NCBI GenBank assembly: GCA_013289795.1
Contig: JABCZH010000006.1
Location: 1 to 64,000, forward strand
DNA from: Acidobacteriota bacterium
GTDB lineage: Bacteria; Acidobacteriota; Terriglobia; Terriglobales; Acidobacteriaceae
Reading direction: 5' to 3'
DNA length: 64,000 bases
Numbering within the stretch: the stretch's first letter is position 1; every line of letters begins with the position of its first letter. The translations under genes were made by a program, and so were the position numbers. Below, one piece after another: positions 21,378 through 23,394 of this stretch. Under the pieces are notes generated by a model. The model was not told the origin of the DNA. It was given only the letters and a program-made list of their open reading frames with translations, and searched no databases.

Positions 21378-21456
21378 GTTAGTCGAGCAAGAATACAGAG
21401 AAGCGCGAAGGCATGGCAACCGATAGGGCCGGGACAATCTGCCTTCCAGTAAAAAC

Positions 21457-21490
21457 TTCACCACAGAGGGCACGGAGGATCACAGAAAGA
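21457..21490. repeat. CACAGAGG/CACGGAGG repeat (family A)
   Basis: ACCACAGAGGG, CACGGAGGAT and CACAGAAAG in the gap upstream of bshB1 and downstream of the DUF190 gene. Confidence 0.65.
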
Positions 21491-21560
21491 GCCAATGCAT
21501 TCGAGGCACGTATGGCAATGGCGGGGTAGATATTGCTAACCAACAAATCGCACGAACACG

Positions 21561-21890
21561 TCAGTCCAAATTCCCCTGCTCGAGCACCACATTCTCGCGC
21601 ACGATCAGCCGGTGCGCTGCCATTTCTTTCAGCGTCGGCAGGACGCGGCTGACGTGCTCATCGTTGTCCACGAAAATGATGATAACGGGCAGCTTTCCGC
21701 CGGCGTCTACGAGGTGCGAAGTTTCCACGCGATGCCGCCCTAGGAATCCGGCGACGGCGTGAAGGGCGGTAGCGGCGTAGACATTTTCCTTCCGCAGGAA
21801 GTTGAGGATCTCCATGTGCAGCGGCCGGTTGTGCCACTTGTCGGCTTCATTCAAATAGATGGTGACCTGCACAGCCATGGCGTCTGGCAT
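21561..21890 (-). CDS. DUF190 protein, partner of CrcB
   Basis: A 109-residue PII-like DUF190 protein. Typical family features are VTIYLNEADKWHNRPLHMEIL at the start and LPVIIIFVDNDEHVSRVLP in the second half. DUF190 genes often accompany crcB, as here: its ATG at 21890 lies one base past the crcB stop, so it is the second gene of a fluoride-responsive operon. A regulatory or nucleotide-sensing role next to the exporter is inferred from the PII-like fold. An alternative start is ATG 21878. Confidence 0.85.
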   Translation of the reverse strand: MPDAMAVQVTIYLNEADKWHNRPLHMEILNFLRKENVYAATALHAVAGFLGRHRVETSHLVDAGGKLPVIIIFVDNDEHVSRVLPTLKEMAAHRLIVRENVVLEQGNLD

Positions 21891-21891
21891 T

Positions 21892-22296
21892 TTACAGCAC
21901 CCGCGCCAGCGCCATCCCGGCGAGTGCTGCCACCAGGCACAAGAGGTTGTTGGTCAGGACATTGGAACAGAGCAGCAGCCATTGTCCTTGCTCGAAGTAC
22001 GCCATGGTTTCAAAAGCGTAGCTGGAGAAAGTGGTAAAGGCGCCGCAGAAGCCGACCACGATCAGCAAGCGCCAGCGGGGATCGATGAGCGCGCGCTCGG
22101 TGGCCCAGACCATGAAAAATCCCACGATCAGACTGCCGGTGACGTTGATGAAGAGCGTCCCGTAAGGAAACACCGGCCCCATGATTCTGGCGGCGAATCG
22201 CGAAATCAGGTAGCGGGCATTGGCGCCGACGATGGCACCCAGGGAAATGATGAAAAAGTCGTTCTTCAGGAAGTCAATCTTCAGCAGGCTCGGCAC
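21892..22296 (-). CDS. crcB: Fluoride exporter CrcB/Fluc
   Basis: A 134-residue inner-membrane protein with four transmembrane helices, forming dual-topology dimers that expel fluoride. Diagnostic motifs are GAIVGANARYLISR, FPYGTLFINVTGSLIVGF and VGFCGAFTTFSSYAFE, the last carrying the pore-lining Phe and Thr/Ser residues. Start is GTG at 22296, eight bases after GGGGAG. A fluoride riboswitch lies immediately upstream, and the DUF190 gene follows. Confidence 0.95.
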   Translation of the reverse strand: MPSLLKIDFLKNDFFIISLGAIVGANARYLISRFAARIMGPVFPYGTLFINVTGSLIVGFFMVWATERALIDPRWRLLIVVGFCGAFTTFSSYAFETMAYFEQGQWLLLCSNVLTNNLLCLVAALAGMALARVL

Positions 22297-22320
22297 GATG
22301 GAGTCTCCCCTACGTAGTTT

Positions 22321-22387
22321 GTAGGAGTTATCAGCCGGGGCCGTTTAGCAAGTCGATCCGGGCGGTTGTGGCGAACTCCATCGCCTG
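22321..22387 (-). promoter_or_regulatory. Fluoride riboswitch (crcB motif) controlling crcB
   Basis: On the minus strand the aptamer reads GGCGATGGAGTTCGCC at 22385-22370 and GGCTGATAACTCCTAC at 22336-22321. Both long-range pairings of the fluoride aptamer are intact: GGAGTT (22379-22374) with AACTCC (22329-22324), and the pseudoknot GGCG (22385-22382) with CGCC (22373-22370). The 3' end, CTCCTAC (22327-22321), can alternatively pair over seven bases with GTAGGGG (22313-22307), which overlaps the crcB Shine-Dalgarno GGGGAG. Fluoride binding would therefore free the ribosome site and switch translation on. Confidence 0.92.
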
Positions 22388-22394
22388 ATTATTT

Positions 22395-22435
22395 TTACCA
22401 CAGAGGGTACGGAGGCGCACAGAGGATTCTCAGAA
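22395..22435. repeat. CACAGAGG repeat (family A)
   Basis: ACCACAGAGGG, TACGGAGGC and GCACAGAGGA directly upstream of the fluoride riboswitch; the gap between aptamer and repeat is under ten bases. Confidence 0.65.
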
Positions 22436-22470
22436 TGATGCTGCCCGAAAGTAACGCCGCCTGTCAGCAG

Positions 22471-22507
22471 TGGACAGGACGCACGGGCGAGGATGCCCGC
22501 GCCTACA
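22471..22507. repeat. GC-rich palindrome (family C)
   Basis: GGACAGGACGCACGGGCG followed by GATGCCCGCGCC; CGGGC and GCCCG pair. Resembles the elements at 19831 and 56337. It lies just after the ispA stop on that gene's strand. Confidence 0.5.
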
Positions 22508-22512
22508 TCGGG

Positions 22513-23394
22513 CTACTTTTTTCTCTCTACCAAAAAGTGTGCCAGCGCCTTCAACGTATCAGCGCGTTTTCCGAAGCTGTCGAGTGAACCGAGCGCGGTG
22601 GCGACTAAGGCATCGGCTTTCTTGAGCGATTCGTCGATACCGAACAGAGCAGGATAAGTAGCTTTTTCGGCTGCGGTGTCTTTTCCCGCGGTTTTGCCCA
22701 GTTGTTCCGAGGTTTGGGTGACGTCGAGGACGTCGTCAACAATCTGGAAAGCCAGGCCGGTGGACTGGCCAAACTCGCGCAGTTTGCAGACATCGTCTTC
22801 GTCGGCTCCGGCATACAGGCCGCCGCTGACTACTGAAGCGGTGATCAACGCCGCAGTCTTCGAGCGGTGAATGTATTCGAGCGTTTCAAGGCTTGGTTTT
22901 CGATGCTCGGCTTCCAGATCGACGACCTGGCCGCCGATCATGCCGTCGATGGTGCCGGTGCCGTGAGCAATCTCTTCAATGATTCGCACCCGTGCCGTCG
23001 CCGGACACCGCAACCGGGCCAGCACTTCGTAAGCCTGAGTCTGTAGGGCGTCGCCCGTGAGAATCGCGATGGCCTCGCCGAAAACTTTGTGGCAAGTGGG
23101 GCGGCCGCGGCGCAGGTCGTCGTTGTCGAGGGCGGGCAGATCGTCGTGGATGAGTGAATAGGTGTGCAACATTTCCAGGGCTGCGCCCAATTCCTCGATG
23201 CCATCAGGCAGGGAACCGCTGAGCATGCGTCCGGCTTCTATGCATAGAATCGGGCGCAGGCGTTTGCCTCCGGCGAAAACGCTGTGGCGCATGGCGGAGT
23301 GGATGGAGGTCGGATGGCGGCTGGCGGCGGGCAGCAAGCGCTCGAGCGCGGCGTCTGTGAGGGTGCGCCCTGCCTCCAGAGTGTCATTGAGCAT
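22513..23394 (-). CDS. ispA: Short-chain polyprenyl diphosphate synthase
   Basis: A 293-residue all-helical prenyltransferase. The first aspartate-rich motif is DDLPALDNDDLRRG near residues 88-101 and the second is FQIVDDVLD near 225, followed by GKDTAAEKATYP. The residues before the first motif (MLHTYSLIHDD) fit farnesyl or geranylgeranyl diphosphate synthases. It makes the C15 or C20 precursor for undecaprenyl lipid, quinone and carotenoid pathways. ATG at 23394. xseB lies two genes upstream on the same strand, a common ispA neighbour. Confidence 0.92.
   Translation of the reverse strand: MLNDTLEAGRTLTDAALERLLPAASRHPTSIHSAMRHSVFAGGKRLRPILCIEAGRMLSGSLPDGIEELGAALEMLHTYSLIHDDLPALDNDDLRRGRPTCHKVFGEAIAILTGDALQTQAYEVLARLRCPATARVRIIEEIAHGTGTIDGMIGGQVVDLEAEHRKPSLETLEYIHRSKTAALITASVVSGGLYAGADEDDVCKLREFGQSTGLAFQIVDDVLDVTQTSEQLGKTAGKDTAAEKATYPALFGIDESLKKADALVATALGSLDSFGKRADTLKALAHFLVERKK

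Follow-up and report, generated by a model that had tools for sequence, protein, structure and literature searches.

A fluoride riboswitch aptamer that lies ahead of a crcB gene raises the question of how ligand binding at the aptamer could be conveyed to the start of the gene. The locus lies in a 64,000-nucleotide stretch of Acidobacteriota DNA that was analysed as a whole (the window). An earlier note on the same DNA had read it as a simple on-switch, where the downstream CTCCTAC pairs either within the aptamer or with a segment that covers the Shine-Dalgarno (SD) sequence of crcB. The assignment to the fluoride riboswitch class was borne out by the Infernal search that the note had suggested: cmscan found Rfam model RF01734 (Fluoride) at the locus with a score well above the gathering score of 34 (Table 1), aligned over the full model length (1-64 of 64). 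The E-value places the aptamer beyond chance, and the locus is the one RF01734 match at E <= 0.001 in its own 4.67 Mb genome. P1, P3 and the pseudoknot were all located in the sequence, in agreement with the claim that the aptamer pairings are intact, and the 5' pseudoknot strand lies in the loop of P1. At the level of sequence, the observation made in the note is confirmed. The locus resembles RF01734 in P1, P3, the pseudoknot, the downstream crcB and the ON logic to be expected; it differs in the P3 region, which has 24 letters in the window and 7 positions in the model. The family definition excludes the expression platform.

Table 1. Features of the riboswitch locus, in window coordinates.
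Feature	Position	Strand	Evidence
DUF190 (COG1993) gene	21561..21890	-	PF02641 91.0 bits
crcB, fluoride efflux transporter, GUG start	21892..22296	-	TIGR00494 108.3 bits, PF02537 97.2 bits
Anti-P1 element GACUCCAUCG (family consensus AACUCCAUCG)	22296..22305	-	Predicted; mean pair probability 0.956
SD hairpin, CUCCUAC (22327-22321) with GUAGGGG (22313-22307)	22307..22327	-	Minimum-energy fold; mean pair probability 0.935
Fluoride riboswitch aptamer RF01734	22315..22394	-	cmscan 51.6 bits, E 2.1e-11
3' pseudoknot strand ACUCC	22324..22328	-	Rfam alignment
P3, GCC (22363-22361) with GGC (22336-22334)		-	Rfam alignment
P1 hairpin GGCG-AUGGAGUU-CGCC, strands GGCG (22385-22382) and CGCC (22373-22370)	22370..22385	-	Rfam alignment
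Aptamer arm of anti-P1 helix, CGAUGGAGUU	22374..22383	-	Minimum-energy fold, pair probabilities
5' pseudoknot strand GGAGU	22375..22379	-	Rfam alignment

The aptamer, the hairpins, crcB and the DUF190 gene all lie on the minus strand. The gene downstream of the aptamer passes the TIGR00494 equivalog cut-off of 80.45 bits, which supports the note's designation of crcB as the target. The crcB stop codon TAA is separated by one base from the ATG of the DUF190 gene, and this gap makes translational coupling of the two genes plausible. Among the relatives described below, 108 crcB-linked rows, window included, extend over 750 nt or more of sequence, and 75 of these have a DUF190-like frame no further than 1450 nt from the aptamer. 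A terminator scan of the minus strand gave no candidate site in the stretch from the aptamer to crcB, in support of the translation switch of the note as against control by termination, and the window sequence lacks a U-run after either of the two helices discussed below. A search of 21400-22600 for sigma-70-like promoters gave none, and the one 16S-tail pattern that was tried had no match in the assembly. Two copies of a repeat of the ACCACAGAGG...CACAGAGG type occur at the locus in the same orientation, one just upstream of the aptamer (22397-22425, plus strand) and the other, which departs from the pattern at 2 positions, beyond the DUF190 gene (21460-21488, plus strand). When 66 bases around the former were used as a query, nine other partial matches appeared in the same genome.

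The pairing of CTCCTAC with GTAGGGG that the earlier note described, seven bases with a seven-base loop, is present as 7 pairs, one of them U-G, and is part of the minimum-energy fold of the 125-nt leader. ACUCC overlaps the 5' arm of this SD hairpin, so that pseudoknot and hairpin are mutually exclusive, which supports the proposed ON logic. What did not stand is the word "simple". The SD hairpin is real, but it is only half of the predicted OFF state, which has a second helix at the start region.

This second, anti-P1 helix shares the unconstrained minimum-energy fold with the SD hairpin. Its aptamer arm, CGAUGGAGUU, comprises the end of the P1 5' strand and the loop with the 5' pseudoknot strand, and the element predicted to pair with it, GACUCCAUCG, fills the spacer between the SD and the start codon and ends on the first base of GUG. 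The predicted ligand-free fold contains 9-11 pairs of this helix. The mean pair probabilities of the two helices in Table 1 refer to the unconstrained fold, where that of P1 is 0.005; when the anti-P1 helix is disfavoured by a soft penalty, the fold loses 3.1 kcal/mol of stability and P1 returns to 0.95. When the growing transcript was folded in 5-nt steps, P1 fell from 0.99 at 95 nt to 0.0 at 100 nt, and this loss coincides with the emergence of the element. None of 1000 dinucleotide shuffles matched the score of the 11-pair helix of the window. The fold energy of the 125-nt leader as a whole is unexceptional (z -1.36; 16 of 200 shuffles fold as well), and all of these leader folds leave out the energies of the pseudoknot, magnesium and fluoride. 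In the modelled ON state, a constrained fold without pseudoknot energy, the unpaired fraction of the window's GGGGAG rises from 0.19 to 0.29, a weak release. As far as predictions go, the ligand-free leader has its SD paired and no terminator, the combination expected of translational control by SD sequestration.

These results make it probable that the locus is a translational fluoride ON-switch of the crcB-DUF190 operon, where both strands of the pseudoknot are captured in the OFF state. The OFF state is a folding prediction, and we infer the fluoride response and the events in the cell. Without fluoride, the 3' pseudoknot strand, as part of CUCCUAC, would pair with the SD region, while the 5' pseudoknot strand and part of P1 (CGAUGGAGUU) would pair with a ten-base stretch whose last base is the G of GUG; the ribosome site would then be clamped from both sides, with P1 open. 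Bound fluoride would fix P1 and the pseudoknot, neither clamp would form, and the start would be freed. The anti-P1 strand is transcribed last, and the choice between the two states could therefore wait until the start codon has been made.

Conservation of the element was assessed in relatives of the window. A first RF01734 search covered 61 genomes (the window's own and relatives), 45 of which had a match, and a second covered 300 genomes of the window's family, 259 of which had a match. From the matches listed, a sample that leans to high-scoring aptamers was drawn, leaving out five of those listed in the second search: 183 hits from 161 genomes, of which 18 hits come from outside the family but within its order or class. 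A CrcB-like frame accompanied 119 of the 183 hits; 8 were dropped because the CrcB match started more than 130 nt away, leaving 111 crcB-linked rows, 102 from the window's family and 9 from other families. For folding, 6 further rows were skipped, giving 105 (49 with the element and 56 without), and a CrcB tree was built on 104 rows, including 48 of the 49 with the element. Some genomes of the window's family have many fluoride aptamers. At E <= 0.001, G233, G303 and G290 have at least 16 matches each and G192 and G137 at least 14 each; five of the matches listed for G233 fall within about 52 kb (C1:1434895-1486394). At L034, two aptamers lie back to back, about 100 bases apart (G043:C12:251250-251314 on the minus strand and 251411-251477 on the plus strand).

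A row was counted as having the element if it carried AACUCCAUCG, allowing up to 3 mismatches, and if the last base of this match was also the first base of an in-frame start codon. By this definition, the element is present in 49 of the 111 crcB-linked rows and 28 of 53 genera (window included), in 20 rows without a mismatch, and it is missing at the tested register in the other 62. All of the element rows lie inside the window's family, and none of the nine crcB-linked rows from other families has the element. In the alignment of the 49 rows, window included, P1 pairs in every row and the pseudoknot pairs are standard in every row; aptamer and element are conserved, and the P3 loop and the linker vary in length and sequence. 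Pairing of the anti-P1 helix is found in 97.6% of 490 cells, compared with 32.4-54.6% when the partner is slid by 1-3 columns. Of 27 element transitions inferred on the CrcB tree, 25 preserve pairing, against 70% of sites by chance (p 0.005). Both the pairing and the tree figures are flattered by the preselection of these rows for likeness to the element and for start-codon position. The element is clustered on the tree, with 17 changes against a shuffled mean of 34.6 (0 of 500 shuffles as low), and all 48 element rows placed there fall within one group of 87. No helix pair in the 49 rows changes on both sides, so strict covariation is absent, because the aptamer arm is nearly invariant. Outside the counted alignment, L126 has GGGG for GGAG in the aptamer and UCCC for CUCC in the element, which may be a double change from A-U to G-C. 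Of 56 analysed rows that lack the element, a shifted or different helix attains p<0.05 in 14, and no helix does so in the remaining 42. Four rows of genus g70 (L081, L084, L095 and L094) show another register, with complementarity between the aptamer loop and GAACUUCAUG at the start codon (p 0.006-0.039).

Complementarity between aptamer and start region was also scored in every hit against dinucleotide shuffles of the downstream stretch, irrespective of the element. At p<0.05 there were 66 of the 119 crcB-linked hits, with 6.0 expected, and 3 of the 64 hits without a CrcB-like frame, with 3.2 expected; the sampled crcB-less switches therefore show no enrichment. Of the element rows, 42 of 49 reach p<0.01. 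An exact gapped pattern containing the element, with element variants left out, found 15 stretches in a contig collection, whose titles name Acidobacteria, Acidobacteriales, Acidobacteriaceae or Sulfotelmatobacter. The proposal that the anti-P1 helix compensates for a weak SD hairpin was dropped, as the relation is weak across rows (rho -0.27, p 0.005) and disappears across genera (rho -0.05, p 0.75). Modelled exposure on switching was similar in both groups of rows: exposure of the SD rises in 40 of 49 rows with the element and 39 of 56 without, and exposure of the start region in 43 of 49 and 46 of 56, respectively. As this rise is also partly built into the constraint, exposure does not single the element out.

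The role assigned here to the anti-P1 helix has to be weighed against other readings of the same data. If the switch worked as the earlier note proposed, only the SD hairpin would matter, and it would be incidental or secondary that the start region is complementary to the 5' side of the aptamer. Such a switch is consistent with the SD hairpin keeping a probability of 0.936 when the anti-P1 helix is penalised, and with genus g7 (L013, L115, L152, L120 and L125), where SD hairpins are long and anti-P1 pairing is almost absent. However, the element recurs in 28 of 53 genera though linker and P3 loop vary, no shuffle matched the window's helix, and complementarity is enriched at crcB-linked hits only. 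As for the SD hairpin itself, a register-free count shows that 5 of the 49 rows with the element, window included, have a hairpin of at least 7 pairs starting at the aptamer CUCC, and 29 of 49 have one with 5 pairs. This count replaces, for ranking the helices, a fixed-register count (75.1% of cells), which was set aside because the hairpin of the window sits one column off that register. Moreover, a CUCCU:AGGAG core is to some degree expected in any case, given the CUCC of the aptamer and how common AGGAG is among SDs. An SD hairpin acting by itself is, on balance, unlikely.

Another reading holds that the element is conserved for a different reason: for example, it might compete as a decoy or second pseudoknot partner for GGAGU while P1 stays folded, or be a feature of the crcB translation start. 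The AACUCC within the element does repeat the 3' pseudoknot strand, and the confinement of the enrichment to crcB-linked hits would suit either version. Both are quite improbable: the pairing continues through AUCG into the P1 strand, an 8-nt loop would presumably be unable to form the whole duplex with P1 closed, and the 12-mer searched for in the window's own genome is no start motif elsewhere, as its two other occurrences lie inside long open frames, away from their starts. Finally, untranslated mRNA is open to termination by Rho, and this general property favours transcriptional control by a Rho-dependent or an intrinsic terminator, with translation secondary. Terminator platforms are, in addition, the type analysed in the accessible text of a 2026 survey (PMC13273304). 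The negative minus-strand terminator scan of the aptamer-crcB interval, and the absence of a U-run after either helix, make transcriptional control highly improbable here. A translational switch with both pseudoknot strands captured is the reading that we retain.

Comparison with known fluoride switches places the window apart in its platform. The crcB motif was described, in the accessible parts of Weinberg et al. 2010 (PMC2864571), with overlapping terminators. The 2026 survey, as far as its text was accessible, derived its full-length covariation models from fluoride switches of the terminator type, and describes the exchange of a pseudoknot strand into the terminator, through P3 in some variants. 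In the Bacillus cereus and Thermotoga petrophila type, as presented in those parts of PMC13273304, the 3' pseudoknot strand of the ligand-free RNA moves to a downstream hairpin, as is predicted for the window. In those switches the downstream hairpin acts as a terminator, and what changes partner is the pseudoknot strand at the terminator base; in the window, the corresponding hairpin spans the SD, and capture is predicted to include the 5' pseudoknot strand and part of P1 as well. The same parts of the survey name switches of Pseudomonas syringae and Burkholderia pseudomallei as translational controls, and these share with the window the aptamer class and the presumed level of control. In a literature search that covers subscription journals thinly, the accessible text of PMC2864571, PMC13273304, PMC8814607 and PMC9495176 gave no account of a fluoride platform in which the 5' side of the aptamer is captured.

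A broader proposal is that the window represents a family-wide, perhaps convergent, type of platform, where the translation start carries the complement of the 5' half of the aptamer, ribosome site and aptamer compete directly for shared strands, and both pseudoknot strands are exchanged; the case for and against this generalization is evenly balanced. Elsewhere in the phylum, 40 loci were taken among the matches listed, mostly top-ranked and with near-duplicates left out, and 7 of the 40 reach p<0.05, with 2.0 expected. Three loci with other P1 or loop letters have complements to match, at or after a start codon (p values uncorrected for the 40 loci). L235 pairs aptamer GAUGGAGUCC with GGACUUCAUC before AUG (10 pairs, p 0.010), L223 pairs aptamer AUGGAGUCC with GGACUCCAU (9 pairs, p 0.037), and L238 pairs aptamer GGGAUGAAGUC with GACUUCAUCCC after AUG (11 pairs, p 0.003). 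If functional, these complements would be compensatory, and the platform may have arisen again, with matching changes, beyond the window's family. A further complementarity, at L227 (10 pairs, p 0.007), was discounted, as it was judged by eye to lie in codons of a conserved stretch of CrcB.

Translational fluoride platforms are less described than the terminator type in the literature surveyed, to judge from the accessible text of PMC13273304. The window points to a conserved and directly testable platform in nearly half of the sampled crcB switches of its family (49 of 102 rows), which, if the proposed mechanism is true, would reveal the way in which a single aptamer is linked to translation initiation.
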